Shown one piece after another: positions 17,681 to 41,025 of a stretch of 64,000 nt of DNA. Numbering within the stretch: the first letter of the stretch is position 1; each line of letters begins with the position of its first letter. The notes beneath the pieces are model-generated. The model was not told the DNA's origin and searched no databases. It worked only from the letters and a program-made list of their open reading frames with translations. A program made the translations under genes and the position numbers. This DNA comes from Shimia sp. R10_1 (lineage in GTDB: Bacteria; Pseudomonadota; Alphaproteobacteria; Rhodobacterales; Rhodobacteraceae): contig NZ_JAGHQX010000001.1 of assembly GCF_017744095.1 (NCBI RefSeq), positions 372,001 through 436,000 on the forward strand, read 5' to 3'.

Positions 17681-18523
17681 ATGAGCGCCATTGATGATCT
17701 TCCTCCGCTGCGTCAGGTGATCGACACCCACGGTCTGTCTGCGCGCAAATCACTGGGGCAGAATTTTCTTCTGGATCTCAACCTCACCGCCAAAATTGCG
17801 CGCCGTGCTGGGGATCTCACCGAATGCGACGTGCTGGAAATTGGCCCCGGCCCCGGTGGCCTCACACGCGGCCTGCTGGCCGAGGGCGCGCGCCGTGTCC
17901 TCGCGATTGAGAAAGATGATCGCTGCATCCCCGCGCTTGCCGAGATCGAAGCCGCCTACCCCGGCCAACTTCAGGTGATCAATGGCGATGCACTTGAAAT
18001 CGATCCTCTGGCGCATCTGACCCCCCCCATTCGCGTGGCGGCCAACCTGCCCTACAATGTAGGAACCGAACTTTTAGTGCGCTGGCTTACGCCCAAGGAA
18101 TGGCCACCTTTTTGGCAAAGCCTCACCCTGATGTTTCAGCGCGAAGTGGCCGAACGGATCACGGCTCAACCGGGCTCCAAAGCCTACGGTCGTCTTGCCA
18201 TCCTTGCCCAGTGGCGCGCCAACGCCAATATCGTGATGTCTTTGCCGCCCGGCGCGTTTTCACCGCCACCAAAAGTGCACTCCGCCGTGGTGCATCTGAC
18301 CGCGCTGGAAGAGCCGCGTTACCCTGCCGACGCAGACATGCTGTCACGCATTGTGGCCGCTGCTTTCAATCAGCGGCGTAAAATGCTGCGTGCCGCGCTC
18401 AAGGGTCAGGCCCCTGATATCGAAGATCGTCTGCTCGCAGCAGGCATCCAGCCAACCGAACGTGCCGAACAGGTCTCCCTAGAGCAGTTCTGCGCCCTCG
18501 CACGCGTGATGAAGGAAAGCTGA
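17681..18523 (+). CDS. rsmA: 16S rRNA dimethyladenosine transferase (KsgA)
   Basis: RsmA dimethylates two adjacent adenosines near the 3' end of 16S rRNA during 30S assembly. The 280-residue product shows the N-terminal [13 protein letters not shown], the SAM site [15 protein letters not shown], the acidic residue ending the second strand (AIEKDDRC), the catalytic [11 protein letters not shown] and a C-terminal helical domain starting near [11 protein letters not shown]. It is the last gene of the lpt-surA-pdxA set. Its last 45 bases overlap the end of the convergent UPF0280 gene, so the two stop codons lie inside each other's genes. Confidence 0.96.
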
Positions 18524-19330
18524 GCCAACCACGCGGGCTTGCCCCTGTACATGCAGATAGACACCTGCAAGCGGGAACTGCTGGGAAAGCCCCTCTGCAT
18601 ATTGCACACCCCGCGCCAAAGCCTCCGCAACATCCGTTGCTGGTAACGGCGCAACGCCCACAGTGACAAGACGAGCGCCCAGATCGCTCCCCTCACGCAC
18701 ATCACAGGCAGGCGCACGCCGCACCAGCGGATGGCGCGGAACATCCACGTGATTGGCGATCAGTGTTGCCGCCACATCCGCTTCCGCTGCCGTGCGCGAC
18801 AGAACCGTCACCGCATCCGCGACTCCCAGCGACAGGCTGCGCCCCCGCCACCCAGACGTTGCCACCCCTCGGATCGGATCATCCGCATGAATGGTCACCT
18901 CCGCATCTGCCCCTGCCACCGTCGCGCGTAGGCTTTGCCCCTCTGTCAACACCAGCGCCACATCGCCACCATTGTTCACATAGGCACGGGACACATCCGG
19001 CACCTCAGCAATCACGCGGGCAATTTCATCCGCCACAGCTCCGGCAACCGCGGCCATAGGGGTCACAAAATCTGGCATGCCCATCCGCGCAGCGCTCTGC
19101 ATCTTTTGCGCCATTCGCCCAGTGAAACAGCTATACGGCTCAACAGGCCGGCGCAGTTTCGGCAGCTCATCCACCAATTCCTGCAAAACCGTTTCAAAAC
19201 GTAGCGCCGCCGCACGAAAGCCCTGCGCACGCCCGTCCCCCCAAATTTCAAGGATCAAATCAATGGGCCCGTGGTGCATATGCAGCCGCCGTCCATCGGG
19301 CAACCATGTGACCTGCGGTCCATCCATCAT
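18479..19330 (-). CDS. UPF0280 family protein (ApbE-like fold), last gene of hydroxylase/reductase operon
   Basis: A 283-residue soluble protein matching UPF0280, a family placed in the ApbE-like structural superfamily. Visible segments are [20 protein letters not shown] near the start, a Gly/Ala-rich part with [17 protein letters not shown] at about 90-110, the sequence [14 protein letters not shown] and [20 protein letters not shown]. ApbE proteins attach FMN covalently to Thr or Ser of target proteins, and the NGGD and GVATSG segments have a counterpart in ApbE. The gene is coupled by ATGA to the upstream 6-hydroxynicotinate-reductase-like gene. The E. barkeri reductase has a covalent flavin, so a flavin-transferase role for this protein is an attractive inference, not shown. 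The function of UPF0280 is unknown. Confidence 0.75.
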
Positions 19331-20793
19331 TGCTTGCGCTCTTGCGGAAAAATCACCTGACTGTCCCGCGCATAAAACCCGCCGCTTTGCAAAATATCGA
19401 TCACATCGCGCACCGCCTCCGTATGCCCGCCAAGTGCCTCATACTCTTGTTTTAAAACGGTAAACTCCAACGGCGCGACAATCGCAGGCGTGGGCACCAT
19501 GCCAAATGCCCCTTTTGGCGTCTGCATCACATCCGCCATAAGGGTGATCCCGCCCCCCGGCCAAACATAAGACTTTGCCCCGCCCACCGTCACCTCGGCG
19601 CGTCCGGCCTGCACGGCTTCTGTCAGCTTCACCGGATTGCGCGTGACGCCTGAACGCAATGAGCCACCCGCACCGCCCATGAACATCACCGTGCAAAGGG
19701 CAGGTTCACAATTCTCCGCAATCAACGCCACCGACGGCTTTATCCGCGCCGGCATCGGCCTTTCTTGCGGCACCAATTGCGCGTCGAGTTCATAATACGC
19801 GGCATGTTCTCCCGTTGTGGAAACCATCAACAATGTCAGCCCCTCACGCGCTCCTTTCTTCGCCAGCCACGGCCCAAGGATCGACAGTGGGTCCTCTATA
19901 TCTGTCCCACCCCAACCGCGCCCAGGCTCTGCCACCTGAAAATAGCGCCCCGGGGTGCTCCGCCGCCCTTTGATACGAATGCCCGTGTCAGGCCAGCCCA
20001 GCACCTTGCCCGCCTGATGCTCACTGACGACGCCAGTAATGTGGTCATCCACCACCACCACTTCATCCACCAGGCCGTACCATTGGCTCGCGAACATCCC
20101 TATGGTGGCAGAGCCGCAGCCCACTCGCATTCGCTCTTCGCGCAGCCCATCCACAATCGGCGCTTTGCCAGCCTGCACCACAATCTCCGCACCATCCTCC
20201 ACTGTCAGTGTGACAGCCTCTCGATTGAGCAGCCGCAACAGCACATCACAGGTCACGCGACCTTCCGCCTTGCTGCCTCCGGTCAGATGATCCACACCGC
20301 CAAGGCTCATCATCTGAGAGCCATATTCGCTGGTGATCATCAGCCCCACAGCCTCGCCCTGATGGCGGATCACAGCCCCCTCACGCCCCAAGTGTCGATC
20401 TGTGTCGATCTTCACCTTGACGCCGCAATAGGAAAAAATCGCCTCCGTCACCACGGTCACAAAATCCGCGCCATCCACTTCGCGGCTCGCCAGAAACGGT
20501 GCGGGCTTATAGTCGGGATAGGTGGTGCCCGCACCAACGGCAGTGACAAATAGATCCTCGGTAGACAGCCCATCATGCCAGTCACGCCCCAGAAACGGGC
20601 GCACATCTCCACCCTGCGCCACCGTCCGATCCAGCACCGTCAACGGATCACAGCGCACGATTTCACCGCCATGATTGGCATAGCGGTCACAAGCGCCAAT
20701 CTTGCCCTCTCCGATATAACACATCACCGGGCAGGCATCGCAGCGGATCTTTTGCTCCCGCACACGTCCTGCTTTGCCCGATGCCTGTGTCAT
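19327..20793 (-). CDS. 6-hydroxynicotinate reductase-like Fe-S flavoprotein
   Basis: A 488-residue soluble protein resembling 6-hydroxynicotinate reductase (Hnr) of Eubacterium barkeri, which reduces 6-hydroxynicotinate to 1,4,5,6-tetrahydro-6-oxonicotinate and holds a covalent flavin and Fe-S clusters. Here Cys18, Cys21, Cys25 and Cys35 form a ferredoxin-like C-x2-C-x3-C set, with Cys48, 123, 182, 226, 362 and 367 as further candidate ligands. The motif SGVT (residues 381-384) resembles the SGAT sites flavinylated by ApbE. The start at 20793 has an ideal GGAGG ribosome site; the upstream molybdenum-hydroxylase stop codon lies two bases before the ATG. The substrate may be another hydroxylated N-heterocycle. 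It occurs in an aerobe-type genome with a fused molybdenum hydroxylase. Confidence 0.72.
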   Translation of the reverse strand: MTQASGKAGRVREQKIRCDACPVMCYIGEGKIGACDRYANHGGEIVRCDPLTVLDRTVAQGGDVRPFLGRDWHDGLSTEDLFVTAVGAGTTYPDYKPAPFLASREVDGADFVTVVTEAIFSYCGVKVKIDTDRHLGREGAVIRHQGEAVGLMITSEYGSQMMSLGGVDHLTGGSKAEGRVTCDVLLRLLNREAVTLTVEDGAEIVVQAGKAPIVDGLREERMRVGCGSATIGMFASQWYGLVDEVVVVDDHITGVVSEHQAGKVLGWPDTGIRIKGRRSTPGRYFQVAEPGRGWGGTDIEDPLSILGPWLAKKGAREGLTLLMVSTTGEHAAYYELDAQLVPQERPMPARIKPSVALIAENCEPALCTVMFMGGAGGSLRSGVTRNPVKLTEAVQAGRAEVTVGGAKSYVWPGGGITLMADVMQTPKGAFGMVPTPAIVAPLEFTVLKQEYEALGGHTEAVRDVIDILQSGGFYARDSQVIFPQERKQ

Positions 20794-20794
20794 C

Positions 20795-23515
20795 CTATCC
20801 TCCGTGTCTGCGCGCCGCCTTGATCGCCGCCAAAACCCGATCTGGTCTGGCAGGCAATTTCGTGATCCGCGCCCCACAGGCATCCGTAATCGCGTTTAAA
20901 ATCGCCGGTGCCGTCGGGATCAGAACATGTTCGCCCAACCCCTTTGCCCCCATCGGCCCTTCTGGGTCCGGCACCTCAATCAGGTGAGACACCACCTCCG
21001 GCATGTCACCGATGGTCGGAATCAGATAATCGTGCAGATTTTCCGTGCGCCCCGGCACAAACTCTTCCATCAACGCCATGCCCAGACCCTGCGCGATCCC
21101 GCCTTCGATCTGCCCTTCAGCAAGCAATGGATTGATCACGCGCCCCAGATCGTGTGCCGCCGTGATCTTCCGCACCTGCACCGTGCCAAGCGCCAAGTCT
21201 ACTTCAACTTCTGCCAGCTGCGCGCCATAGCCATAAACCGCATAAGGCACGCCCTGCCCGTTTTCATCGAGCGCCGCCGTGGGCGGATCATAGGTTTCCT
21301 GCACCATGAGCACATAGCCTTCCGCCCCGACCGGCAATGCGGAAAGATCAATCGCCCGCACCTCGCCCGCTTCAGCGATGCGCAACTGCCCCGCCGCCAA
21401 TGTCAGACTGGCACCTGACCCCATATTGGCCATCTGCAAAATCTGAGTGCGCAGCGCCTGCCCCGCCAATAGCGCCGCTTTGCCGCTCACCACGGTTTGC
21501 CGACTTGCAGAGGTTTTGCCACAATCCGGCGTCAGCGCGGTATCTGCATCTACCAGATCCAACTGATGCACCGGCAGCCCGACAGCATCGGCCGCAATCT
21601 GTGCAATCACCGTATTGGACCCCTGCCCAATATCCATCGCCCCCTGATGCAGGCGAATACGCCCCTCCGCCGTGATCCCAATGCGCATGGTCGAAGGGTT
21701 CGGCAGCGCCGTGTTCCCGCAGCCATACCAGCAGCTGGCAACGCCGATACCCCGCTTCGTGCCAGCGTTGCGCGCATTGAAATCAGCAACCTCGATCTGC
21801 GCCGCATCCCAGCGTGGCTGCAGCGACGCGAGGCATGCACCAATTCCCACGCCCTGCACTGTTTGCCCACAAACAGTCAGGTCCGACTCACGCAATGCGT
21901 TCTTCCGCCTGATTGCGAGCCGATCCATTGCCAACTTGCGCGCCAAATCGTCCAGCAAGGTCTCCTGCAAAACCGCCGCCTGCGGCACACCAAAGCCGCG
22001 AAACGCCCCAGCAATCGGCCCATTGGTGTGGATTGCCCGGGCCTCTGCGGCGTAGTTTGGCACCGCATAAGGCCCACTGGCATGCACCGGCACACGCACC
22101 GCAACGGTCGGCCCCCAGCTTGCATAGGCGCCCGTGTCAAAATCGCCATCAAACAACATACCGGTCAGCCGCCCCTCTGCATCCGCAGCCAGCGAGGCCC
22201 CCATCTGCGCGGGATGGCGCTTTGTCGACGCGCGCATGCTTTCTGCCCGGCTATAGACCATCACGCTTGGCTTCCCCGTCAGCAGCGTCACCAACCCGAT
22301 CAGGGGCTGCACAGACAAATCAAGCTTTGCGCCAAAACCGCCACCGGTCGCCGCTGGCCTTATGCGCAGCTTTTCTTCCGCCAGCCCCAAAATCTTCGCG
22401 GTCTCATCGCGGTCCAAAACCGGTGCCTGCGTGCAGGCGCGAATGTTCAGGACATCGCCCTCCATCCAGGCCACACCAGCCTCAGGCTCAATATAGGCAT
22501 GTTCCACGTGGCTGGTTACAAAGGATCCAGAGACGACATGTGCAGCATCCGAAACCGCCTGAGCCGCATCACCGCACCGTACAGCCCCCGCAATCAGCAA
22601 ATTGTCAGGCCGCCTCTCATGAAGCTGCGCAGCACCCTCTGCGCGCGCCTTCTGCACCTCCAACAGCGCGCTGCCAGGCGTCCAGCGCACAGGCGCTTTG
22701 GCAAAATCCAGCGCCAGCACCGCCTCACGCCTACCCGCAACCAAGGCGACCGCCTCACCGGTAAAACGCACCCGCCCTTCCGCCAGTGCAGGCTGATCCA
22801 CAAACGCAGGGATCACCCCAGTCTCATTGCGGCCCGGAATATCTGCAGCAGTAAACACCTGAACGTCATGGGCTGCCGCCCAAGCTTCCAGATCGCCGAA
22901 CGCAAACTCGGCCGCTGCATGAGGGCTGCGGATTGCCCGCACCCAAAGCGCATCTTGCGGCAGATCATCTGCGCCAAAGCGCTCCGATCCCAGCACCTTT
23001 GCCACGCCATCAAGCCGCTCCACACGCGCCCCAACAGACGCCGCCGCATCCGGCTCAGGCCCCGCGCCACTCCCGGCGGCATCCAGCACAGCATCCACGA
23101 TCTTGGCGTAGCCCGTGCATCGGCACAAAACCCCGCCAAGCGCGGTCTCTACCGCGCGCCGATCCGGGCGGCTGTCTTTGCGCAACAGCGCTTCTGCCGC
23201 CATCACCATGCCAGGGGTGCAAATGCCACATTGCGCCGCGCCATGTCGTAAAAATGCGCGCTGCAAGGCACTTGGCCCCGGTCTCTGCATCCCCTCTATG
23301 GTTTCAATTTGGCGCCCCAGCGTCTGCGCAACCGGGGTCAGACAGGCACAAACCGCTTTCCCATCGAGCAAAACCGTGCAAGCGCCGCAATCGCCTGCAT
23401 CGCAGCCCACTTTGGTTCCGATCAGCGCCAAATCATTGCGCAACACATCCGAAAGGCGCTGCCCGGGGGCGGCAACCACCTCATGCGCCACGCCGTTCAC
23501 CTTAAGTCGGATCAT
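20795..23515 (-). CDS. Fused [2Fe-2S]/molybdopterin hydroxylase of the xanthine dehydrogenase family
   Basis: A 906-residue fusion of the small Fe-S subunit and the large molybdopterin subunit. Residues 1-150 hold two [2Fe-2S] sites: Cys38, 43, 46 and 56 in the plant-ferredoxin spacing, and Cys96, 99, 131 and 133. Residues from about 165 hold the molybdopterin domain with GGGFGAKLDL, GAFRGFGVPQA and a C-terminal GLGEHVL whose Glu862 fits the catalytic base. Such enzymes hydroxylate N-heterocycles (purines, nicotinate, pyridones) or aldehydes with water as oxygen source. The FAD subunit is the upstream gene (ATGA overlap) and the reductase the downstream one. The substrate is not visible, but this company favours a pyridine-type ring over xanthine. 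Confidence 0.88.
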   Translation of the reverse strand: MIRLKVNGVAHEVVAAPGQRLSDVLRNDLALIGTKVGCDAGDCGACTVLLDGKAVCACLTPVAQTLGRQIETIEGMQRPGPSALQRAFLRHGAAQCGICTPGMVMAAEALLRKDSRPDRRAVETALGGVLCRCTGYAKIVDAVLDAAGSGAGPEPDAAASVGARVERLDGVAKVLGSERFGADDLPQDALWVRAIRSPHAAAEFAFGDLEAWAAAHDVQVFTAADIPGRNETGVIPAFVDQPALAEGRVRFTGEAVALVAGRREAVLALDFAKAPVRWTPGSALLEVQKARAEGAAQLHERRPDNLLIAGAVRCGDAAQAVSDAAHVVSGSFVTSHVEHAYIEPEAGVAWMEGDVLNIRACTQAPVLDRDETAKILGLAEEKLRIRPAATGGGFGAKLDLSVQPLIGLVTLLTGKPSVMVYSRAESMRASTKRHPAQMGASLAADAEGRLTGMLFDGDFDTGAYASWGPTVAVRVPVHASGPYAVPNYAAEARAIHTNGPIAGAFRGFGVPQAAVLQETLLDDLARKLAMDRLAIRRKNALRESDLTVCGQTVQGVGIGACLASLQPRWDAAQIEVADFNARNAGTKRGIGVASCWYGCGNTALPNPSTMRIGITAEGRIRLHQGAMDIGQGSNTVIAQIAADAVGLPVHQLDLVDADTALTPDCGKTSASRQTVVSGKAALLAGQALRTQILQMANMGSGASLTLAAGQLRIAEAGEVRAIDLSALPVGAEGYVLMVQETYDPPTAALDENGQGVPYAVYGYGAQLAEVEVDLALGTVQVRKITAAHDLGRVINPLLAEGQIEGGIAQGLGMALMEEFVPGRTENLHDYLIPTIGDMPEVVSHLIEVPDPEGPMGAKGLGEHVLIPTAPAILNAITDACGARITKLPARPDRVLAAIKAARRHGG

Positions 23516-24369
23516 TGCAAAGGCCCCGACGCCGCCGCAAGCACCGCCCGGCGCACCAATTCTGGCACCGCCTCCAAACGATAGGCCGCGCTGCCTCGAA
23601 TGTCCGAGATAGGCTGCAAAATATCTGCGAAATCACTGTCGCTTATCGCCCGCGACAAATCCGCAATCGGCGCACCGATCAGCGCGGCCTCAAGCAATGG
23701 CAGCCGCATCGCAACCGGGCTACAGGCCCCCACTGCAACAGCTGCACCGGCAACATGGCCCTCAGATATCTCTAGACGCGCTGCAACCATCGCAACCGAA
23801 ATCACCAAATGGCTCCGGCTGCCAAGCTTTTCAAATGCACTTGCCCCGGTCGCACTGCAATGCGGCACCAAGATAGCGCTGACCAGCTCATCTCCTTTGC
23901 GCGCAGTTGCACGCGGCCCCGTCACAAAATCCACCAAAGCCATACGTCGAACACCACCCGGCCGCAAAAGCTCGACTTCCGCGTCCAGTGCCAAGAGCGG
24001 AGGGATGCCATCAGCCGCCGGGGAGGCATTGCAAATATTGCCCACAACAGTTCCGGCGTTTTGAACCTGAACGCCCCCGACCTGACGGGCGGCTTGCTTT
24101 AACATGTCAAATGCAGCGGGCAAAGGTGTCGCAACCACATCGCTCCAACTGGCACCCGCGCCGATCCGCCACCCTTTCGCAACCTGCTGAATGCCTCTAA
24201 ATTCACTCAAGCCGGTCACATCCAAAATGACTTCATCAGGCCCAGTGCCAAGCGCCTGCGCTTGGGTTGCCGCAAAAAGATCTGTACAGCCCGCTGCTAT
24301 GATCACCCGACCGTCTTCAAGCAACGCAAGCGCATCTTTCAACTTGTCTGGGCGGTGATAAATCCCCAT
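23512..24369 (-). CDS. FAD-binding subunit of molybdenum hydroxylase
   Basis: A 285-residue protein with a CoxM/XdhA-type FAD domain. Residues 20-45 hold the first dinucleotide loop (IIAAGCTDLFAATQ), and GTVVGNICNASPAADGIPPLLAL at about 105-125 is the second FAD loop; the C-terminal CO-dehydrogenase-flavoprotein domain begins near residue 165. It would carry electrons from the Fe-S clusters of the fused hydroxylase to NAD or another acceptor. It is the first gene of the operon running to the UPF0280 gene, with a good ribosome site (GAGAGGACA) and a palindromic operator ending some 30 bases upstream of its ATG. Confidence 0.9.
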   Translation of the reverse strand: MGIYHRPDKLKDALALLEDGRVIIAAGCTDLFAATQAQALGTGPDEVILDVTGLSEFRGIQQVAKGWRIGAGASWSDVVATPLPAAFDMLKQAARQVGGVQVQNAGTVVGNICNASPAADGIPPLLALDAEVELLRPGGVRRMALVDFVTGPRATARKGDELVSAILVPHCSATGASAFEKLGSRSHLVISVAMVAARLEISEGHVAGAAVAVGACSPVAMRLPLLEAALIGAPIADLSRAISDSDFADILQPISDIRGSAAYRLEAVPELVRRAVLAAASGPLQ

Positions 24370-24505: not shown

Positions 24506-24955
24506 ATGCCCGCATCTGACACGTCTTTACCGCCTCTCACGGCCGCTGAAACCTATGATCTTGACGAACAGGTTGGATTTCTTTTGCGCCGCGCCACGCA
24601 ACGCCATTTGGCCATTTTCGCACAAGGCATCACCGATCTGACGCCCACTCAATTTGCGGCGCTCGCCAAACTTTGTGCCTTGGGCGCGGTCTCGCAAAAC
24701 GCTCTTGGACGCGCAACGGCGATGGACGCAGCAACGATCAAAGGTGTGGTGGATCGGCTGCGCACCAAAGCCCTCGTGATCAGCGCACCTGACCCCGAAG
24801 ATCAACGACGCGTGTTGCTGAAACCCACAGCCAAAGGATGGGACCTCTACGAAGCGCTGGCACCAATGGCGACACAAATCACCGAGGACACACTCGCACC
24901 TCTGAACGACGCTGAAAAAACGATTTTCACCTTGCTCTTGAAGAAACTGGTATAG
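24506..24955 (+). CDS. MarR-family transcriptional regulator
   Basis: A 149-residue MarR-type winged-helix repressor candidate. The recognition helix is within LGRATAMDAATIKGVVDRLR and the wing in SAPDPEDQRRVLLKPTAKG (the D-x-R-R-V signature of MarR proteins); the ends form the dimer helices. It is divergent from the hydroxylase/reductase operon with a strong palindrome in between, so it most likely represses that operon and itself and is released by a pathway compound. A parallel is NicR, a MarR protein that controls nicotinate genes of Pseudomonas putida and responds to 6-hydroxynicotinate. Its ribosome site is poor, so expression is probably low. Confidence 0.9.
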   Translation: MPASDTSLPPLTAAETYDLDEQVGFLLRRATQRHLAIFAQGITDLTPTQFAALAKLCALGAVSQNALGRATAMDAATIKGVVDRLRTKALVISAPDPEDQRRVLLKPTAKGWDLYEALAPMATQITEDTLAPLNDAEKTIFTLLLKKLV

Positions 24956-25032: not shown

Positions 25033-25728
25033 TCAAACCCCCAGATGACGCGCCAAAATGGTGGGATCATCGCGCAGCGCCTCTCCGGAAACAACGCCAC
25101 GCATCCGCCCATTTTCCAACAATGCTGCGCGATCGGCCAAAGCCAAGATCGCTTCCACCCGCTGTTCCACCAGAACCACAGCAACCCCTTGATCGCGCAG
25201 CGTTTCTGTCACATCACGAATGGCGGCAATCATCGAAGGCTGTAACCCTTCAGTTGGTTCATCCAACAACACCACACTGGGCCGCAGGCTCAGCGCACGG
25301 CCCATGGCAAGCATCTGCTGCTCTCCGCCACTCAACGTGTTTGCCCGTTGCGCATATCGCTCCCTAAGCCTTGGAAAAAGTTGAAGTATTTCTTCCAGAG
25401 TGCTCTCACTTTCGCATTGTGAAAACCGTCCAACCTCCAGATTCTGACCCACTGTCAGATCCCCAAACAGCCGCCGCCCCTGCGGCACATAGCCCACGCC
25501 GTGCCGCGGCACCACATGCGCTGGCAGATCTGACAACACTGTCTTCCCCAGCCGCACAGCGCCACTCATCAAAGGCAACACCCCCATGATCGCTTTCATT
25601 GTGGTGGTCTTACCAGCGCCATTGCGGCCCAGAAGACAGGTGATTTCACCTGCTTGCGCCTCAAAAGAGACATCGCGCAACACCTGCGCTCTGCCGTACC
25701 CGGCATTGACCGCCTCAAGCTTCAGCAT
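25033..25728 (-). CDS. ABC transporter ATPase, LivF type (importer 1)
   Basis: A 231-residue ATPase of the branched-chain amino acid/amide importer class. Walker A is GRNGAGKTT, the signature LSGGEQQML, and Walker B VVLLDEPTEGLQPSM; the EQRVEAILALADRA switch region is typical of LivF. The ATG at 25728, behind GGGAGGTG, is chosen over upstream frames because LivF proteins begin MLKLEAV. It overlaps the end of livG by 14 bases and is the last gene of the importer operon. It faces the MarR gene, with about 80 bases between the stop codons. Confidence 0.93.
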   Translation of the reverse strand: MLKLEAVNAGYGRAQVLRDVSFEAQAGEITCLLGRNGAGKTTTMKAIMGVLPLMSGAVRLGKTVLSDLPAHVVPRHGVGYVPQGRRLFGDLTVGQNLEVGRFSQCESESTLEEILQLFPRLRERYAQRANTLSGGEQQMLAMGRALSLRPSVVLLDEPTEGLQPSMIAAIRDVTETLRDQGVAVVLVEQRVEAILALADRAALLENGRMRGVVSGEALRDDPTILARHLGV

Positions 25729-29692: not shown

Positions 29693-29799
29693 CGTGTGTC
29701 CCCCTGTGTTCACATGGTGTTGTGACCGTAAATTCCGCAATCAGTATGCTTGTTAGAGTGCAAATGAATGCCGGTTCTGTCTAGAGGCGAGCGGTTTTG

Positions 29800-31227
29800 T
29801 CAGAAGCCGCGCGGCGATGCAAGCAGCCAAAGTCCAAGAAACGTGCAATAAATCATAAAGATAGCGACAGGCGCCTGCGTAAGCGCAACGCGCGTTCTGG
29901 TCGCGCGCAAAGCCACCGCATGGGCCAACAACAGTGCAACGACATGTCCAATCACCACGCCGCCCGCCTGACAAAGCCACAAAAGGCGGACACTTTCCTG
30001 AGTGTTGAAAAAACCGGTTGAGACATAAAAGGTCCCCAACCCCAACAGATCTTGCCCCCGTGCCCAGGGGTCACTCGCTGCCGCAAGCGCGTATTGGGAC
30101 TGTACCAGAAAACTCGTGAAGTAATGGGCAAAATGATAGCCCAATGCGATGGGCAGAACCGTCGGCGCAAACACGCAGAACGCTTGGCGCAATGCCATGT
30201 CGACACGCCCCAGTTTCAACCCAAGCCAAAGCGCCCCGACAAAGCAGCACACCAAAATGACATTGGCCACCACCAGACCGCCAAGCGTTTGCCAAACCAC
30301 AGCGGATCGTCCGGGAAACTCCAGAGGGTTCAACCCCAAGAGATCAAGCCACCAGAAGGTTTCATTCAGGCCATCAAAGATCCCGCTGCCCAATATCAAC
30401 AGGCTCAACAAGGCGGGGCCAAAGCCAAGCCTGCGCCCATGCAACAGCTTCCAGCCGTTCAATCCAATGGCAACGCGCCCGCCTTTATGTCCGAACATGC
30501 CAACGCGCGCATAAAGTGTCAGCATCATCGACACACCATCCGCGCGCAGGCGCCAGCGCGGGCCAAATACCATCATCCCCGCAAAGGTCAGCCCCCAATA
30601 CAGTGCCACAACGCGCGCAAGCCGCGCGGGATCAGACGGGGCAACATCGGCCAGAACAAACCCGACCAATGCAAGAAAACTAAAAATCCCAACCCAATGT
30701 CCAAGCCAGCTGGGATAGCGCACACCAATGCTGCCGCCGATCAGCCAGCGAAACAGCCACACCGGCCCACTCCAGGGGTTCACCCAACGCCAAAGATCCC
30801 CAAACAGCCCTTGTATCGCTACAAAACCGATCCACCAAAGCGTCCAAACCGTCAGTGGCAACGGATTTGCCAAAGGATCTCGGGGCCCTTCAAGACCAAC
30901 ATAGATCAGCCAAGCGAGACAGATGGCCGACAGTAAACTCGTGGCGTTTCTGATCCATGGCTTTGCCCCAGACTGCCACAAACGCTTGTAGCAGAAAGAC
31001 GACGTAACCGCCCGTTCAGGCAGGATCAGCAGCATTGCAACCGTCAACGCCACCGCCAGCACACCGGATCCGATGTACAGATCAGTTGGCAGCAACAGCA
31101 CAAAGCCGCCTTCAGAGGTATGCGCACGCGCACTCCCAGCAGAAAGCGCCACCACGCCCAGAACACGCCCCCCCTTTGCGACCGTGCGAATGACGGATAA
31201 AATGAATGAGAGGATCTGACAGCACAT
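29800..31227 (-). CDS. Multi-pass membrane protein of unknown function
   Basis: A protein of about 475 residues with roughly twelve hydrophobic segments. The N-terminus looks like a signal peptide ending at SARA-HTSEGG. Marks are HTSEGGFVLLLPTDLYIGSG, the aromatic stretch GDLWRWVNPWSGPVWLFRWL and conserved His residues in LGYHFAHYFTSF. I recall similar proteins carrying the annotation 'fenitrothion hydrolase', a label too weak to trust. The start is uncertain: ATG at 31227 avoids overlap with the divergent gene, but the ribosome site is poor. It faces away from a periplasmic PCu(A)C-like gene with only 25 bases between starts, so a joint role in metal handling or in exporting or modifying something is possible but unproven. 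Confidence 0.6.
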   Translation of the reverse strand: MCCQILSFILSVIRTVAKGGRVLGVVALSAGSARAHTSEGGFVLLLPTDLYIGSGVLAVALTVAMLLILPERAVTSSFCYKRLWQSGAKPWIRNATSLLSAICLAWLIYVGLEGPRDPLANPLPLTVWTLWWIGFVAIQGLFGDLWRWVNPWSGPVWLFRWLIGGSIGVRYPSWLGHWVGIFSFLALVGFVLADVAPSDPARLARVVALYWGLTFAGMMVFGPRWRLRADGVSMMLTLYARVGMFGHKGGRVAIGLNGWKLLHGRRLGFGPALLSLLILGSGIFDGLNETFWWLDLLGLNPLEFPGRSAVVWQTLGGLVVANVILVCCFVGALWLGLKLGRVDMALRQAFCVFAPTVLPIALGYHFAHYFTSFLVQSQYALAAASDPWARGQDLLGLGTFYVSTGFFNTQESVRLLWLCQAGGVVIGHVVALLLAHAVALRATRTRVALTQAPVAIFMIYCTFLGLWLLASPRGF

Positions 31228-31252
31228 GCGCGGATCATACTGAGAGGATACC

Positions 31253-32041
31253 ATGATGAAAGCGCGAAAAATCATAGGGCTATGTTTGGTCGCGCTCTGT
31301 GCGTCTGGCGCATCATGGGCGCTGATGCGACCAGACCGAACCACGGACGTTTTGCTGACAAATGCAACAGCAAGCCCTTTGTTGGCTCAGCCAAACACAA
31401 TCGCCGTGTTTTTGGACATCGCCAATAGCGGCGCGCCCGACAGATTGATGTCGGTCACCTCTCCAGAGGCGACCGTCGCCCAATTTAGCGGCACAGACAG
31501 CCGTCGTGCGATCCCCGCAGACAGCAGTGTCGCCTTGGCCGCCGACGGTATGTTTGTGGCCCTCTCTGGTATTTCAGGCGCTTTGGACGACGGGCGCACA
31601 TTGCCTGTTGCCCTGACGTTTGAGAACGCAGGCACCGTTCACACCCGCGCACGCATTGTTGCCCCTAGAGAAACAGGAGATGCCCCAGATTATGGCCTGT
31701 TTGGGATTGGCGACATCTGTCAGGTCGGCGAAGGCGAACCTGCACCAAACATCGAACTCTTGGCCGAAAAATCCGGCGATGGCTGGCTCGTGCAGGTGCT
31801 GTCTGACGAATTTGAATTCACACCCCATCTTGTCGATGGCCCACATGTTCCGGGCACTGGACATGGGCATATCTATCTGAATGGCGTAAAGCTCGGGCGC
31901 CTTTATGAGCCCTCCACCACAATTGGCGCTCTGCCTCCCGGCGCGCATGACATTCGCGTCACATTATCCACCAATGATCACCGCGCCTACGTTGTGGGAG
32001 ACCAACCCATCACCGCATCGATTCGGATTCTCGCCGATTGA
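31253..32041 (+). CDS. Periplasmic protein with PCu(A)C-like domain and His-rich C-terminal domain
   Basis: A 262-residue exported protein. Residues 1-23 form a signal peptide or N-terminal anchor. Residues 30-135 resemble the copper chaperone PCu(A)C (NTIAVFLDIANSGAPDRLMSV), but the Met/His copper ligands of that family are missing from the expected places. A second domain at about 180-260 has histidines at 192, 198, 204, 206, 232 and 243 around PHVPGTGHGHIYLNGVKLGR, a likely metal site. Starts at 31253 or 31256 are both possible after AGAGGA. It ends 73 bases before hyuA on the same strand; the hyuA operator lies between, so it may be a separate unit. Confidence 0.65.
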   Translation: MMKARKIIGLCLVALCASGASWALMRPDRTTDVLLTNATASPLLAQPNTIAVFLDIANSGAPDRLMSVTSPEATVAQFSGTDSRRAIPADSSVALAADGMFVALSGISGALDDGRTLPVALTFENAGTVHTRARIVAPRETGDAPDYGLFGIGDICQVGEGEPAPNIELLAEKSGDGWLVQVLSDEFEFTPHLVDGPHVPGTGHGHIYLNGVKLGRLYEPSTTIGALPPGAHDIRVTLSTNDHRAYVVGDQPITASIRILAD

Positions 32042-32065
32042 CAGGCCCCAACCTCGCCCTCCATC

Positions 32066-32096: not shown

Positions 32097-32114
32097 GACA
32101 CCGGAGGATGATCC

Positions 32115-34178
32115 ATGTCCGACACTTCCCAAAGGCCCAAAGCCGCTGTGGCAGGGATCGACGTGGGCGGTACTTTCACGGATCTGGTGGCATTGGATGC
32201 AGAGGGAGCAATCAAACTCGCCAAAGTGCCAAGCACACTTCAAAACCAGGCACATGGTGTTCTGAACGCACTGGCCGCGGCAGACTGCAAACCATCCGAG
32301 CTGTCACTGATCGTGCATGGGACCACAACAACCACAAACGCCTTGCTAGAGCGTAACCTAGCCCGCACAGGATTGATCACCACCGCCGGTTTTCGCGACG
32401 TGTTGGAACTTGGCCGCCGCACCCGCCCGCAGGCCTACGGCATGCACGGCCGTTTTGTCCCGCTCATTCCCCGAGATCTCAGGCTTGAGGTGGCAGAGAG
32501 GATGGACAGCGATGGAAACGTTCTTGTTCCTCTGGATAAAACCGCCCTGCGCGCCGCGGCACGACAGCTCCGCGATGCGGGCTGCGAAGCAATTGTCGTG
32601 CATTTCCTGCACGCCTACGCCAATCCCCGCCATGAGCTTGAAGCCATTGCCGAACTTCAGACGCTTTGGCCCAATGATCACATCACGGCCGGTCATCAGG
32701 TGCTGTCAGAAAACCGCGAATACGAACGCGGGGTGACGGCGACTGTAAATGCCTGCGTGCAACCTCTTCTTCAACGCTATGTGCAAAGCCTGTCTGACAC
32801 ACTCGCCACACAAGGCTATCCCGGCGACCTTCTTGTAATGAATGGCAATGGCGGCATGGTCAGCGCGCGCCATGTGGCCAAGGAAGCGGCCAAAACCGTA
32901 ATGTCGGGGCCCGCCTCCGGTGTCATGGCGGCCGCCTATACCGCTCGCCGCGCAGGCATTCCAAACGTCATCACTTACGACATGGGCGGCACCTCCACCG
33001 ATGTGGCGCTGATCCGCGATGCAAGCCCTTCGGTGTCCAATGAAATAGAGGTGGAATACGGGATGCCAATTCACGTCCCCATGGTGGACGTGCGCACCGT
33101 TGGTGCCGGTGGTGGCTCCATCGCCAGAATCAACAGCGGCGGCCTGCTCGACATCGGCCCACAAAGCGCAGGCGCAACCCCCGGGCCCATTTGCTACGGC
33201 TTGGGCGGCACGGATCCCACAATATCTGACGCCAACATGTTGCTGGGGCGGCTTGATCCCAAAGGCGTCAGCGCGTCGAGCGGCGGCACCGAAAACAAGG
33301 TTCAGCACATCGTTGAAACGCAAATTGGCAAGCCTCTTGATCTGACAGCAACCGAAGCGGCGGCGGCCATCCTTCAGGTGGCCAATACCAAGATGGCAGG
33401 TGCAATTCGCATGGTCTCTCTCTCGCTTGGCGCGGATCCACGTGACTTTGCACTTTTTGCCTTTGGCGGCGCTGGCCCCCTGCATGCCTGCGCGCTTGCA
33501 AAAGAACTCAACATACCGCGTGTCCTTGTGCCTGCCCGTCCGGGCCTAACCAACGCGCTGGGCTGCGTGGTTGCGGACCTGCGCCACGATTTCGTTCAAA
33601 CGATCAACGCGCCGCTACAAACACTCAAGCCAACCCAAATAGCCGAAATTTTTACCGCGCAAGAGGCGCAGGGCAAACACCTGATAAGCAATGAAAACAT
33701 CCCCACCACAGAGATCGAGAACCACTATTCCCTTGATATGCAATTTGTGGGCCAAACCCATCTGTTGCGCGTGCCACTCACAAAGCCCACGACCTCACCA
33801 GAGGATCTGCAAGCCCTGTTTGAAGCCGTCTATCGCAAGCGCTTTCATGTGGACTTAAACGAGGTTCAGGCGGCAGTGGTCAACGTCAATTGCTCCGTCA
33901 TTGGCCGGCGCGAAACGCTCGACCTGGGCCAGCTCTTTGACCCCCACAAACGCAAAACCACGCTTAAAGACGCCCAGACCCGCACCCGCGATGTGTTCTT
34001 TGACACCAAATGGCATCCAACGCCTGTCTATGCGCGCGACTCCCTGCCCGAAACCTTCACCCTGATCGGTCCCGCCATCATCGAACAGCTCGACACCACG
34101 ATTGTGGTGCCCCCCGGTGACCATGTGACACCAGATCATGACGGCAATCTGATCATCACCATTGCAGGTGCCACATGA
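32115..34178 (+). CDS. hyuA: Hydantoinase/oxoprolinase subunit A (HyuA)
   Basis: A 687-residue ATP-dependent lactamase subunit. The N-terminal ATP-binding fold starts with AGIDVGGTFTDLVALD, the phosphate-loop region is VHGTTTTTNALLER, and the middle has ITYDMGGTSTDVALI and VGAGGGSIARI; the C-terminal domain follows from about 510. With HyuB it hydrolyses cyclic amides such as N-methylhydantoin or 5-oxoproline with ATP. Here the likely role is opening a reduced ring amide made by the reductase-like enzyme. It starts after GGAGGATGATCC and overlaps hyuB by ATGA. A MarR-type operator precedes it. Confidence 0.9.
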   Translation: MSDTSQRPKAAVAGIDVGGTFTDLVALDAEGAIKLAKVPSTLQNQAHGVLNALAAADCKPSELSLIVHGTTTTTNALLERNLARTGLITTAGFRDVLELGRRTRPQAYGMHGRFVPLIPRDLRLEVAERMDSDGNVLVPLDKTALRAAARQLRDAGCEAIVVHFLHAYANPRHELEAIAELQTLWPNDHITAGHQVLSENREYERGVTATVNACVQPLLQRYVQSLSDTLATQGYPGDLLVMNGNGGMVSARHVAKEAAKTVMSGPASGVMAAAYTARRAGIPNVITYDMGGTSTDVALIRDASPSVSNEIEVEYGMPIHVPMVDVRTVGAGGGSIARINSGGLLDIGPQSAGATPGPICYGLGGTDPTISDANMLLGRLDPKGVSASSGGTENKVQHIVETQIGKPLDLTATEAAAAILQVANTKMAGAIRMVSLSLGADPRDFALFAFGGAGPLHACALAKELNIPRVLVPARPGLTNALGCVVADLRHDFVQTINAPLQTLKPTQIAEIFTAQEAQGKHLISNENIPTTEIENHYSLDMQFVGQTHLLRVPLTKPTTSPEDLQALFEAVYRKRFHVDLNEVQAAVVNVNCSVIGRRETLDLGQLFDPHKRKTTLKDAQTRTRDVFFDTKWHPTPVYARDSLPETFTLIGPAIIEQLDTTIVVPPGDHVTPDHDGNLIITIAGAT

Positions 34179-35932
34179 ACGTTGATCCCATCACTCTCAC
34201 CGTCATTCAGGCCGGGCTTCAGCAGGTCTGTGACGAAATGGACCTCACCTTTTCTCGAGCGGCCTTTTCCCCTGTGATCGCGGAAGCCAATGACCGCTCA
34301 GATGGCATCTACGCCGCAGAGGATGGCGCCCTGATCGCACAAGGCAACGCCGGACTGCCCGTGTTTGTGGGCACAATGCAATATTCCACCCGCACGCTGA
34401 TCGCGATGATCGCATCTGGCGAGGTATCATCGCCAGAGCCCGGCGACATCTACATCGTCAACGACCCTTATCTGGGCGGCACGCACCTGATGGACGTGCG
34501 CTTTGCCACGCCTTTCTTTCGGGATGGCAAAATCTTCTGCTGGCTCTCCAACACCGGCCATTGGCCCGATACAGGCGGCGCTGTGCCGGGCGGCTTTTCC
34601 GCCTCTGCCACAGCGGTGGAGCAAGAGGGCCTGCGTCTTCCTCCTGTTAAACTCTTCAAACGGGGCCAGCTGGATCAGGAGATCTTTGCCATCATCAAAT
34701 CCAATATCCGCGTGGCCGAGCAACGCATCGGCGATGTTCAGGCTCAAGCCGCCGCACTTCTGGTTGGTCAGGAGCGTCTTACGGCGCTTCTGGATCGCTA
34801 TGGCGACGCGCAAGTGTCTGAGGCCATCGCTGAGCTGCGCAGCCGTGCCAAAACACAAATGCTGGCCTGCCTGACAGAAATCGCCCCCGGCACCTACCCC
34901 GCGACCGCCTATGTCGACAGCGATGGCGTGGTGAACACACCTCTGACCATCGCGCTGACCGTGACCAAAGATGAGATGGGTCTGACGTTTGATTTCTCAG
35001 GCAGCAGCAAGCCCTGTTTGGGGCCGATGAATTCCGTGCGCGCCACCACGCTCAGCGCGGTCTATCTCGCCATGCGTCACATCTTCCCCGAGGTGCCGAT
35101 GAACGCAGGCGCCTTTGCGCCGCTCACTGTGATTGGCATTGAAAACACATTTCTGGATGCGCAGTACCCCCGGCCGGTCTCTGGCTGTGCCGCCGAAGTA
35201 TCACAACGCATTGCTGAAGCGGTCTTCGCCGCGCTGGTCACAGCGCTGCCAGAGCGTGTTACCGCAGCCCCAGCTGGCACCAGCGGCAATTTCGCGCTGG
35301 GCGGCCATGACCCGTCAAAGGGGCGCGACTACGTGATGTATCAGATCTCCGGCGGTGGATATGGCGGCAACGCTGATCACGATGGTCTGACCAATGGCTG
35401 TTCCACCATCGGCATCTCCAAGGCACCACCGATTGAAATCATGGAACAGGCCTATCCGGTGCTCTACCACCGCTATGCCTTACATGAGGGCTCCGGCGGC
35501 GCTGGCGCGCAGCGTGGCGGCTTTGGGCTGGACTATGAAATCGAGCTGCGCCGCGGCCATGCCAAAGCCAGCTTTGTGATGGACCACGGCCGTTTTGGCC
35601 CGCAAGGCGCACTGGGCGGGGGCGATGGTGCGGTCAACCGCGTCACTGTCTGGCGCGACGGGGTCGCCCACACGCCCGAGCACCTCTCAAAGGAACAAGA
35701 CATCCCATTGTTGCCCGGTGACCGCGTACATGTACAAACACCGGGTGGTGGCGGCTATCGCGATCCCCTGTCGCGCAGCCCTGATCTAGTGGCCGAAGAT
35801 GTGCGTCTCGGTCGCTACACACGCAACCAAGCGGCGGAGTTGTTTGGTGTCGTTTTGGAAGACGCAGCCCCAACGCCAGACAACGACCAAACACAAACGC
35901 TGCGCGAGGAAAAGCGCGCCACCCAAAAGTAG
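34175..35932 (+). CDS. hyuB: Hydantoinase/oxoprolinase subunit B (HyuB)
   Basis: A 585-residue partner of HyuA. Marks of the family are FSRAAFSPVIAEANDRSDGI, DIYIVNDPYLGGTHLMDVRF, FDFSGSSKPCLGPMNSVRA and the C-terminal GDRVHVQTPGGGGYRDP. HyuB supplies the hydrolytic part of the two-subunit cyclic-amidase. The last 40 residues are charged and less conserved. It is coupled to hyuA and is followed, after 37 bases including a 17-base palindrome, by the convergent glutaryl-CoA dehydrogenase gene. The substrate is not deducible from the sequence; 5-oxoproline, a hydantoin or a ring amide from heterocycle breakdown are alternatives. Confidence 0.9.
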   Translation: MNVDPITLTVIQAGLQQVCDEMDLTFSRAAFSPVIAEANDRSDGIYAAEDGALIAQGNAGLPVFVGTMQYSTRTLIAMIASGEVSSPEPGDIYIVNDPYLGGTHLMDVRFATPFFRDGKIFCWLSNTGHWPDTGGAVPGGFSASATAVEQEGLRLPPVKLFKRGQLDQEIFAIIKSNIRVAEQRIGDVQAQAAALLVGQERLTALLDRYGDAQVSEAIAELRSRAKTQMLACLTEIAPGTYPATAYVDSDGVVNTPLTIALTVTKDEMGLTFDFSGSSKPCLGPMNSVRATTLSAVYLAMRHIFPEVPMNAGAFAPLTVIGIENTFLDAQYPRPVSGCAAEVSQRIAEAVFAALVTALPERVTAAPAGTSGNFALGGHDPSKGRDYVMYQISGGGYGGNADHDGLTNGCSTIGISKAPPIEIMEQAYPVLYHRYALHEGSGGAGAQRGGFGLDYEIELRRGHAKASFVMDHGRFGPQGALGGGDGAVNRVTVWRDGVAHTPEHLSKEQDIPLLPGDRVHVQTPGGGGYRDPLSRSPDLVAEDVRLGRYTRNQAAELFGVVLEDAAPTPDNDQTQTLREEKRATQK

Positions 35933-35950
35933 CGCGCCTTAACTTCTCCG

Positions 35951-35967
35951 ATTAACAAATTGTTAAT
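35951..35967. repeat. 17-base perfect palindrome between convergent hyuB and gcdH
   Basis: ATTAACAA and TTGTTAAT surround one base. The A+T-rich inverted repeat sits in the 37-base gap between two converging genes and may stop or stabilise transcripts from both sides. There is no T run long enough for a classical terminator. Confidence 0.5.
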
Positions 35968-35969
35968 TA

Positions 35970-37184
35970 TTAGAAAAACGCCTGCAAGCCTGTCTGCGCA
36001 CGACCAAGGATCAGCGCATGCACATCATGGGTGCCTTCATAGGTGTTCACCGTCTCAAGGTTGATCATGTGGCGGATCACACCAAATTCCAGGCTGATGC
36101 CATTGCCGCCATGCATGTCCCGCGACATGCGTGCGATATCCAGCGCCTTGCCGCAGTTATTGCGCTTGATCAGCGAAATCATTTCGGGTGCAGCTTCCGC
36201 CTCATCCATCAAGCGACCCACGCGCAGCGCCGCCTGCAGACCCAGCGTGATCTCTGTTTGCATATTCGCCAGTTTCAGCTGGAACAGCTGCGTCTGCGCA
36301 AGCGGCTTGTTGAACTGCTTGCGGTCAAGCCCATACTGACGCGCGGCATGCCAGCAATACTCTGCGGCCCCCATCGCGCCCCAAGCGATGCCATAACGCG
36401 CACGGTTCAAACAGCCAAACGGGCCTTTCAGACCTTCCACATTCGGCAGTAGCGCATCCTCTGACACTTCCACATTGTCGAGCACGATCTCACCGGTGAT
36501 GGAGGCACGCAGGCTGGCCTTATGGCCGATCTTTGGCGCGCTCAAACCTTTGGTGCCTTTGTCCAGAACAAAGCCACGGATCTTGCCACCATGCGCTTCA
36601 GATTTGGCCCAAACCACAAAGACATCCGCAATCGGGGAATTGGAAATCCACATCTTGGAGCCATGCAACACATAGCCGCCATCCACCTTTTTGGCGGTGG
36701 TTTTCATGCCCGCAGGATCAGACCCCGCATCCGGCTCCGTCAGGCCAAAACAGCCAATCCATTCGCCAGAGGCAAGCTTAGGCAAATACTTTTGACGTTG
36801 CTCCTCACTGCCATAAGCATAGATCGGATACATCACGAGCGAGCTTTGCACCGACATCATAGAGCGATAGCCACTGTCGACGCGCTCAACCTCACGCGCC
36901 ACGAGCCCGTAGGTGACATAGCTGGATCCGATCCCGCCGTATTCTTCAGGGATGGTCGTGCCCAAAAGCCCCATCGCGCCCATTTCCGCAAAAATCGCGG
37001 GATCTGTTTCTTCGTTTTCAAAGGCAGAAGTCACCCGCGGCATTAGCTTTTCGTCGCAATAAGCACGTGCGGCATCGCGCACCATGCGTTCATCTTCCAA
37101 AAGCTGGCTTTCGATCAGAAATGGATCTTCCCAATTGAACGATCCCAACTCTGGTTTGGACTGCGGCGCCAGATCTTTGGCCAT
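35970..37184 (-). CDS. gcdH: Glutaryl-CoA dehydrogenase
   Basis: A 404-residue FAD enzyme that oxidises and decarboxylates glutaryl-CoA to crotonyl-CoA. The C-terminal half matches this subfamily closely: [20 protein letters not shown], then [20 protein letters not shown], in which Glu383 is the catalytic base, and [15 protein letters not shown]-terminal MAKDLAPQ...[19 protein letters not shown] is also typical. The start has a strong AAGGAGATC site. It is divergent from the CoA-transferase gene; the two enzymes would convert free glutarate to crotonyl-CoA. Lysine breakdown also ends at glutaryl-CoA, so glutarate could come from there instead of from a heterocycle. Confidence 0.93.
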
Positions 37185-37420
37185 GTGATCTCCTTCCTCG
37201 CGCCCGGATTACAGACGCTTCTGACTGTCTTTGTTGGGGCACACAATGCGCCGCCGTGTCCCAAGGTCAAGCCGACGCGCGCAAAAAGCCGCGACGTCGC
37301 GAAAATTCTTGGACGTTGCCTTGTCAGCCGGTCTGCGCATTGTAAGGTCCCAACATCGCCGCAAATGCGGCATTTCCAGCCAGTCTACCACAGATCGGTC
37401 CTGAATAATAAAGGCGCCCC

Positions 37421-38539
37421 ATGACCCCACTACACGGTCTCAAAGTTGTTGAACTTGCACGCATTCTTGCTGGTCCCTGGATTGGCCAATCGCTCGCCGA
37501 TCTCGGCGCAGAGGTGATCAAAGTCGAAGCACCACAGGGCGATGACACACGCACATGGGGCCCGCCCTTCATCGAACGCGACGGCGACACAACCGCCGCT
37601 TACTTCTACGCTGCCAACCGGGGCAAGACGTCGGTGGTCGCCGATTTCCGCACCGAGGAAGGCCGCGCGCAGGTGCTTGATCTCATCAAAGATGCCGATA
37701 TTCTGATCGAGAATTTCAAAGTTGGCGGTCTGCAGAAATACGGGCTGGACTACGACAGCCTCGCCAAGATCAATCCGCGCCTGATCTATTGCTCTATAAC
37801 CGGATTTGGCCAGACCGGCCCCTACGCCAGCCGCGCGGGCTATGACTTCATGATTCAAGGCATGTCCGGCCTTATGTCCATCACCGGCGAACCGGAGCGT
37901 CAGCCGCAAAAGGTGGGCGTTGCGGTCACCGATGTGGTCACCGGGCTTTATGGTACGATCGGCATTCTCGCCGCTGTGGAGCAACGCCACACCACCGGGC
38001 GTGGCCAGCATATTGATATGTCCCTGCTCGATTGTGCAACCGCGCTTCTGGCCAATCAGGCGATGAATTACCTTGCCACCGGCGAAAGCCCGACGCGCAA
38101 AGGCAACGCCCACCCCAACATCGCGCCCTATCAGGTGGTGCCCACATCAGATGGCCACATCATCATTGCCGTAGGCAATGACGGGCAGTTCCAAAGGCTT
38201 TGTGGTGTGCTCAGCCGAGGCGACCTTGGCGACAACCCGGCCTATGCCACCAACCAGCTGCGGGTCGCAAATCGCGATGCCCTAACACTGGAAATTGAGG
38301 CTGAAACCGCCAAGTGGTCCGCGGCAGACCTGCTTGCTGCACTTGAGGCCGCAACCGTGCCCGCAGGCCCGATCAACGCAGTGGCCGACACACTCAACGA
38401 TCCACAGATCCAAGCGCGCGGGATGGTGATCGAAGCCGACGGCGTCAAAGGTGTGCGTGGTCCCTGGACCTTCTCCGATGCAGAGCTGGCCACAGATCGT
38501 AGCGCGCCTGTGCTGCCCAAATCCGTCGCAGACAAATAA
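37421..38539 (+). CDS. Class III (CaiB-type) CoA-transferase, probable glutarate CoA-transferase
   Basis: A 372-residue class III CoA-transferase. The family core is visible: LKVVELARILAGPWIGQSLADLGAEVIKVE at residues 6-35, the catalytic Asp in the SRAGYDFMIQGMSG segment (RAGYDF), and SLLDCATALLANQAMNYL. Pairing with glutaryl-CoA dehydrogenase suggests succinyl-CoA:glutarate CoA-transferase activity, as in the human SUGCT enzyme. This is inferred from context. In related genomes a LysR gene often lies nearby; none is seen in the 236-base divergent gap upstream. Confidence 0.85.
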   Translation: MTPLHGLKVVELARILAGPWIGQSLADLGAEVIKVEAPQGDDTRTWGPPFIERDGDTTAAYFYAANRGKTSVVADFRTEEGRAQVLDLIKDADILIENFKVGGLQKYGLDYDSLAKINPRLIYCSITGFGQTGPYASRAGYDFMIQGMSGLMSITGEPERQPQKVGVAVTDVVTGLYGTIGILAAVEQRHTTGRGQHIDMSLLDCATALLANQAMNYLATGESPTRKGNAHPNIAPYQVVPTSDGHIIIAVGNDGQFQRLCGVLSRGDLGDNPAYATNQLRVANRDALTLEIEAETAKWSAADLLAALEAATVPAGPINAVADTLNDPQIQARGMVIEADGVKGVRGPWTFSDAELATDRSAPVLPKSVADK

Positions 38540-41024: not shown

Positions 41025-41025
41025 C

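Follow-up and report, generated by a model that had tools for sequence, protein, structure and literature searches.

The 64,000-nucleotide stretch of Shimia sp. R10_1 analysed here (the window; contig 11 of the 4.37-Mb genome G000) contains a gene cluster that very probably serves aerobic, reductive breakdown of nicotinate, with the hydantoinase-like pair HyuA and HyuB (HyuAB) replacing enamidase as ring opener and the route ending in conversion of glutarate to crotonyl-CoA. In the proposed route, a molybdenum hydroxylase would convert nicotinate to 6-hydroxynicotinate, and a 6-hydroxynicotinate reductase-like protein (Hnr) would reduce this to 1,4,5,6-tetrahydro-6-oxonicotinate (THON). HyuAB, as an ATP-dependent lactamase, would then take the role of enamidase, which needs no ATP, and open the lactam ring of THON; hydrolysis of the resulting enamine would presumably release ammonium and 2-formylglutarate. 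Decarboxylation and oxidation would lead on to glutarate, which a CoA-transferase and glutaryl-CoA dehydrogenase (GCDH) would carry to crotonyl-CoA, and the neighbouring UPF0280 protein would serve to insert flavin into Hnr. We infer all of these reactions, including the HyuAB product, the decarboxylation and aldehyde steps and the role of UPF0280. The gene identities, the linkage of Hnr, UPF0280 and HyuAB, and the complementarity of HyuB and enamidase are direct results of the computation. A preliminary description of this DNA had proposed a reductive route for an N-heteroaromatic compound; that proposal is upheld, and nicotinamidase and NicAB genes in sister clusters narrow the substrate to nicotinate.

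HyuAB and enamidase in Hnr genomes

We searched three genome sets, a draw from the family (n = 149), a draw from the class (n = 289) and a set of congeners (n = 25), with the window genome present in both draws, and read the counts by eye from the match listings. Hnr was found in 68 of the family genomes, 44 of the class genomes and 9 of the congeners. The class count stands after removal from 45 listed rows of G053, which had a single 39-residue match (E 1.6e-4); short second matches in G122 and G001 were also left out. Partial, split or stop-containing copies in two class genomes (G028 and G231) and four family genomes (G296, G302, G390 and G434) were taken as positive. HyuB orthologs were called at an identity of at least 74% in the family draw and at least 63% in the class draw, where the next matches stood at 61% (G217) and 59% (G114); G318, G420 and G064 were accepted as positive with partial matches, and G184 has two copies above the cut. 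As enamidase query we used an amidohydrolase encoded near Hnr on a betaproteobacterial plasmid, in a stretch without HyuAB, whose best solved match is the Eubacterium barkeri ENAMIDASE (PDB 2vun, E 2.4e-111 over 380 residues). Enamidase orthologs were called at no less than 51% identity in the family draw (G317 with a fragment of 114 residues at the end of a contig) and no less than 66% in the class draw. The class searches scored up to four candidates per genome for HyuB and up to six for enamidase.

With these cuts the two openers were complementary. The 68 Hnr genomes of the family draw comprised 36 with a HyuB ortholog, 30 with an enamidase ortholog, none with both and 2 with neither, and the 44 of the class draw comprised 27 with HyuB, 17 with enamidase, none with both and none with neither. 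The chance of zero overlap in the family draw would be 2.8e-17 if the genomes were independent, and the association of the HyuB ortholog with Hnr gave Fisher p values of 1.5e-14 (family) and 9e-27 (class) with the genomes again taken as independent, which they are not. All 27 class genomes with HyuB above the cut carry Hnr. Outside the Hnr genomes of the family draw a HyuB ortholog was found only in G310, whose contig starts just past the expected place of Hnr and runs through AA_synth, importer and HyuAB in cluster order. This enamidase query, which represents the ring opener of the known reductive nicotinate pathway, had no match at E 0.001 in the window genome. Among the family neighbourhoods fetched, an enamidase match (>40% of the query) lay within about 10 kb of Hnr in 11 of 20 from the 32 Hnr genomes without a HyuB ortholog (G302 and G434 included) and in 0 of 20 from the 36 genomes with one. 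G302 and G434 are the two Hnr genomes with neither opener. The G434 genome is 73% complete, and its Hnr sits where a contig ends; in G302 (L245:1320-6494) the Hnr match and a 60% HyuB match are broken by stops and a HyuA match lies nearby in two frames, which looks like joint decay.

A tree of 74 Hnr rows (73 of them different) requires no fewer than 10 changes of opener, of which well-supported branches force 7; for the plasmid rows L118-L121 the opener is that of the plasmid stretch only. The 29 sampled Hnr-linked HyuB rows formed one clade (support 100/99) with G114 and G217 nested inside, a grouping that partly restates the identity cuts because the label H was assigned from them. Taken together, the complementarity of the openers and their repeated switching are most simply read as HyuAB doing the job of enamidase, and the replacement of enamidase by HyuAB in Hnr genomes is strongly supported. 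The earlier placing of HyuAB where enamidase would be expected has thereby come through a test that it could have failed.

The congeners provide a second view of this linkage. All nine with Hnr carry HyuB; in G454, the tenth congener with HyuB, the contig starts within the importer genes, short of where Hnr would be expected. Three congeners (G022, G441 and G445) have neither Hnr nor a HyuB ortholog and keep the hydroxylase, MarR, importer, membrane protein and PCuAC genes in the same order. In these three, PCuAC adjoins gcdH at the expected place of HyuAB, and in G441 and G445 the hydroxylase directly abuts ksgA at the place of Hnr and UPF0280, where G022 has other genes. The two missing pieces are about 11 kb apart in the window. 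The Hnr-negative congeners G444, G449, G452 and G455 carry gcdH and caiB with no importer in the stretch, G449 being cut at a contig end. This double absence indicates that a genome may keep the hydroxylase and importer while lacking the reductive branch, and that this branch travels with HyuAB. Co-inheritance across relatives was borne out for Hnr, UPF0280 and HyuAB; it is not strict for the hydroxylase, and GCDH is present regardless of Hnr. The Hnr-negative congener loci that keep the molybdenum hydroxylase and importer are L180, L181, L182, L196, L197 and L198.

The ring opener and the reductase module

HyuA (32115..34178, plus strand; Pfam Hydantoinase_A and Hydant_A_N) is the putative ATP-binding subunit of the proposed THON lactamase, and HyuB (34175..35932, plus strand; Pfam Hydantoinase_B) its putative metal-site subunit. 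HyuA retains the ATP motifs of the caprolactamase subunit CapA (the first Asp motif, DMGGT and GxxPGP), and HyuB residues Asp-40, His-104, Asp-107 and His-129 are equivalent to Asp-41, His-99, Asp-102 and His-124 of CapB, so that the Asp-His-Asp-His metal site is present. According to the accessible part of the caprolactamase study (PMC8453981), mutagenesis found the ATP-site motifs and this metal site to be needed, hydrolysis of the lactam is proposed to proceed through an activated lactim, and caprolactam hydrolysis without ATP is uphill by 23 kJ/mol. As far as the same part of that study goes, CapAB of Pseudomonas jessenii is an ATP-dependent lactam hydrolase of two subunits, a type to which HyuAB would also belong, and the two enzymes agree in their ATP motifs and metal tetrad, but HyuAB differs in scoring under the caprolactamase cut-offs (496.4 and 318.3 bits with NF050156 and NF050157, against 1000) and in having most pocket residues changed. 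Such a replacement of the pocket would be expected for a charged substrate, although no pocket assignment is claimed. If it works as caprolactamase does, HyuAB would use ATP to activate the lactam of THON before hydrolysing it.

Hnr (19327..20793, minus strand) is identified through homologs annotated as 6-hydroxynicotinate reductase in plasmid records, which supplies the reductase of the reductive nicotinate pathway. It shares 59-71% identity with 16 alphaproteobacterial homologs, and its closest named relative in the scanned collection is that of Shimia sp. R9_2 (90%). The alignment places the likely start at 20793, not 20883. The predicted model of Hnr showed no clear known fold. Next to it, UPF0280 (18479..19330, minus strand; NCBIfam NF003322, 325.7 bits against a cut-off of 290) is an almost constant partner: the midpoints of the two genes lie no more than 2 kb apart in 129 of 131 Hnr loci, some genomes being represented twice and the loci being partly redundant (L111-L117 repeat several of L142-L149, and L121 equals L158 in Hnr). 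The exceptions are L038, with no match, and L125, where UPF0280 is about 5 kb away.

The reductase of E. barkeri carries a covalently bound flavin. UPF0280 is predicted to adopt the ApbE flavin-transferase fold and in this is like the ApbE, Ftp and FmnB flavin transferases; it is unlike them in that a Pfam search of the protein returned no family, and so no recognised ApbE family domain. We consider that UPF0280 probably serves flavin insertion into Hnr. No flavin target site is assigned in Hnr, because the Thr of its GVT motif is not invariant and is replaced by Val or Ala in 7 of the 131 loci. A search of open-licence papers found none on UPF0280.

A set of 80 named loci was assembled from the top-scoring matches to an alignment that has the window Hnr as its first sequence. 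This set leans to the HyuAB type because of how it was drawn, and enamidase was seen in 0 of the 80; some of its members probably repeat numbered loci (for example L035/L149 and L061/L144). AA_synth (PF06684) genes lie near UPF0280 in 62 of the 80 (for example L121:18296-18877 and L118:18392-19554). There is no AA_synth gene in the window and one on a different contig of its genome (G000:C39:231038-231568).

A broader proposal, which we regard as evenly balanced between right and wrong, is that Hnr-linked HyuAB is a new ATP-dependent THON lactamase, a non-homologous second opener exchanged with enamidase at least 7 times, that UPF0280, a divergent protein of the ApbE fold, attaches flavin specifically to Hnr, and that Hnr and UPF0280 with either opener form a portable ring-reduction module.

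Counter-evidence, carbon fate and substrate

Several observations weigh against a nicotinate route with HyuAB as opener. The split between openers depends on identity cuts: G104, of the HyuB type, also encodes an enamidase homolog at 40% identity, and HyuB paralogs at 43-44% occur in the enamidase genomes G065, G194 and G231. The HyuB proteins of G114 and G217 fall in the Hnr-linked clade and come from genomes without Hnr, and enamidase homologs without Hnr occur in G082 (class) and G336 (family, 45%). Close linkage of HyuAB to Hnr (about 10 kb or less) was seen in only 6 of the 20 HyuB-positive family neighbourhoods and in only 24 of the 80 named loci; elsewhere HyuAB is further off or on another contig. 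The hydroxylase (with the importer) is kept without Hnr in 3 of 8 Hnr-negative congener neighbourhoods, and the p values given above overstate the association because the genomes are related. HyuA and HyuB score below the cut-off of every NCBIfam equivalog, and they do not conserve the hydrophobic caprolactam pocket, a difference consistent with another substrate but silent on which one. Finally, GCDH is a core gene, found in 24 of the 25 congeners regardless of Hnr.

This last point bears on the downstream steps. GCDH (35970..37184, minus strand) is closest to solved glutaryl-CoA dehydrogenases: it matched the human enzyme at E 2.9e-166, the best match named outside acyl- and glutaryl-CoA dehydrogenases being an acyl-CoA oxidase at 2.9e-68, and of its ten best solved matches nine carry the name glutaryl-CoA dehydrogenase and the top one that of acyl-CoA dehydrogenase. 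A score of 215.8 bits with the GCDH model NF045552 (cut-off 470) counts against this identity, which at the family level is nonetheless secure from the sequence comparisons. The class III CoA-transferase (37421..38539, plus strand; PF02515) is probably a succinyl-CoA:glutarate enzyme, its best NCBIfam model being succinate--glutarate CoA-transferase NF052585 at 540.9 bits, under the cut-off of 750. That the pair belongs to lysine breakdown and not to the nicotinate route is a real possibility, if a somewhat doubtful one. In its favour, the 24 congeners with GCDH include Hnr-negative ones, and the related Phaeobacter inhibens takes lysine to glutaryl-CoA, as stated in the available portion of PMC5653290. 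Against it, five other loci (L057, L141 and L239-L241) have a GCDH or CoA-transferase homolog within or close to the gene string of Hnr or enamidase, with an 80% GCDH within the Hnr string of L141 (G412) and an 81% GCDH about 5 kb from Hnr in L057. In G319, G326 and G360 the enamidase gene has a same-strand neighbour, a CoA-transferase homolog of 61-65% identity, at a distance of about 60 to 85 bases measured from one alignment end to the other. Both uses are also possible at once. The decarboxylation and aldehyde oxidation steps have no gene assigned to them; an aldehyde dehydrogenase cluster was seen in 6 of the 80 named loci, with one member tested. For the nicotinate route, a glutarate end is likely but shared, because GCDH is a core gene. 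Convergence on glutaryl-CoA, as described earlier for this DNA, remains likely; both genes are present and have homologs near Hnr or enamidase genes elsewhere, but the pair is at least shared, and the accompanying caveat about lysine agrees with the distribution of GCDH.

The hydroxylase itself does not name its substrate. The stretch 20795-24369 had been described as one molybdenum hydroxylase; a hydroxylase is indeed there, but as two genes, one for a fused [2Fe-2S] and molybdopterin subunit of 906 residues (20795..23515, minus strand; Pfam MoCoBD_1/2, Fer2 and Fer2_2) and one for an FAD subunit of 285 residues (23512..24369, minus strand; Pfam FAD_binding_5 and CO_deh_flav_C). Pfam thus assigns it to the molybdenum hydroxylase family, and its scores lie below the cut-off of every NCBIfam equivalog listed. 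This, together with extra genes such as a Rieske oxygenase in some sister loci, would suit another pyridine (isonicotinate, picolinate or a pyridone) as substrate, with HyuAB and enamidase clusters serving different compounds. We think this improbable. A nicotinamidase-family gene occurs in 25 of the 80 named loci, 13 of them with HyuAB, and both of the members that were scored exceed the curated cut-off of 174, at 212.3 and 224.3; these loci are not independent, since 14 of the 25 are named Mesorhizobium. On Neorhizobium pNCHU2750a one stretch carries nicAB, importer, hnr, UPF0280 (annotated as hypothetical), two AA_synth genes and hyuAB. NicAB was found with HyuAB and with enamidase, and the fused hydroxylase likewise, so both hydroxylase types occur with both openers. 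The repeated switches on the Hnr tree further mean that the opener marks no single class of Hnr substrate. From the nicotinamidase and NicAB genes in sister clusters, nicotinate would be the best single substrate.

One Sagittula locus (L119:21556-22626) has an annotated aromatic ring-hydroxylating dioxygenase and another ATP-binding cassette (ABC) importer near Hnr, and homologs of the dioxygenase occur in L126, L135, L136, L154 and L160; we speculate that it might channel some other pyridine, for instance an N-methylated one, towards the pathway.

That HyuAB is an unrelated hydantoinase or 5-oxoprolinase lying beside the cluster by chance is very unlikely indeed, for although some HyuB homolog occurs in 125 of the 149 family genomes, the orthologs of at least 74% identity are in 36 Hnr genomes and G310 (whose contig starts inside the cluster), form the single 100/99 clade, adjoin hydroxylase or importer genes in other gene orders and are found in 0 of the 30 Hnr genomes with enamidase.

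Cluster layout and comparison with known systems

The cluster is flanked by ksgA on one side and by the gcdH-caiB pair on the other. Reading from ksgA, the order is UPF0280, Hnr, molybdenum hydroxylase with its FAD subunit, MarR, Liv-type importer, membrane protein, PCuAC-like protein, HyuA, HyuB, GCDH and CoA-transferase, and because the orientation changes several times along it the cluster is not one operon. The hydroxylase, Hnr, HyuA/HyuB, GCDH, CoA-transferase, Liv importer and MarR genes all lie where the preliminary description had put them; UPF0280, the membrane protein and the PCuAC-like protein had been overlooked. The MarR regulator (24506..24955, plus strand; Pfam MarR) has homologs adjoining many sister clusters. 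The ABC importer comprises LivF, LivG, LivM and LivH (25033..28304, minus strand), with LivF and LivH recognised by Pfam ABC_tran and BPD_transp_2 and LivG and LivM by position and homologs, and a periplasmic binding protein (28388..29740, minus strand; Pfam Peripla_BP_6). The integral membrane protein of 514 residues (29800..31344, minus strand) has homologs in 28 of the 80 named loci and matched no NCBIfam family and no Pfam family above chance. The PCuAC-like gene (31253..32041, plus strand; Pfam PF04314) lies upstream of HyuA. After the CoA-transferase, a second gene set resembling a Liv-type importer occupies 38607-43219, and its ATPase-like proteins cross-match the LivF and LivG loci at about 30-45%.

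The analysis proposes a specific function for genes annotated merely as N-methylhydantoinase or hydantoinase/oxoprolinase, and explains how over half of the sampled Hnr genomes, 27 of the 44 from the class and 36 of the 68 from the family, could open the ring without enamidase. It also offers a functional hypothesis for the unnamed UPF0280 family, the constant neighbour of Hnr. The cost in ATP would make ring opening irreversible and might be an advantage where nicotinate is dilute, as in seawater.

The earlier suggestion that the HyuA/HyuB variant is undescribed agrees with the open-licence literature, in which we found no paper describing it. A search there by title and start of abstract gave no report of HyuAB in nicotinate breakdown, subscription journals not being excluded by it, and no open-licence paper was found in which hydantoinase stands together with 6-hydroxynicotin-.

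Nicotinate fermentation by E. barkeri was reportedly described by Alhapel in 2006, and the route of Azorhizobium caulinodans is said to go back to Kitts in 1992. In the accessible parts of PMC9304392 and PMC10331938, the E. barkeri system shares with the window a molybdenum hydroxylase, 6-hydroxynicotinate reductase and the intermediate THON. It differs in its opener, a bifunctional enamidase being the only one named for THON in the accessible part of PMC9304392, where the window has HyuAB, and in having the molybdenum part split into NdhL and NdhM, where the window has the molybdenum and iron-sulphur parts fused. The cluster of Azorhizobium caulinodans and Bradyrhizobiaceae SG-6C, as presented in the available text of PMC3511419, shares the aerobic reductive route via THON and glutarate, an Hnr homolog, an ABC transporter and two conserved unknown proteins. 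That cluster was found by BLAST with E. barkeri genes and credited with the first three steps, from which an enamidase-type opener would follow, and the text of the paper has no word beginning "hyu" (PMC3511419). Set beside these systems, the Shimia cluster stands as a well-supported variant of the reductive nicotinate pathway already known, one where a dedicated clade of ATP-dependent lactamases would replace enamidase.

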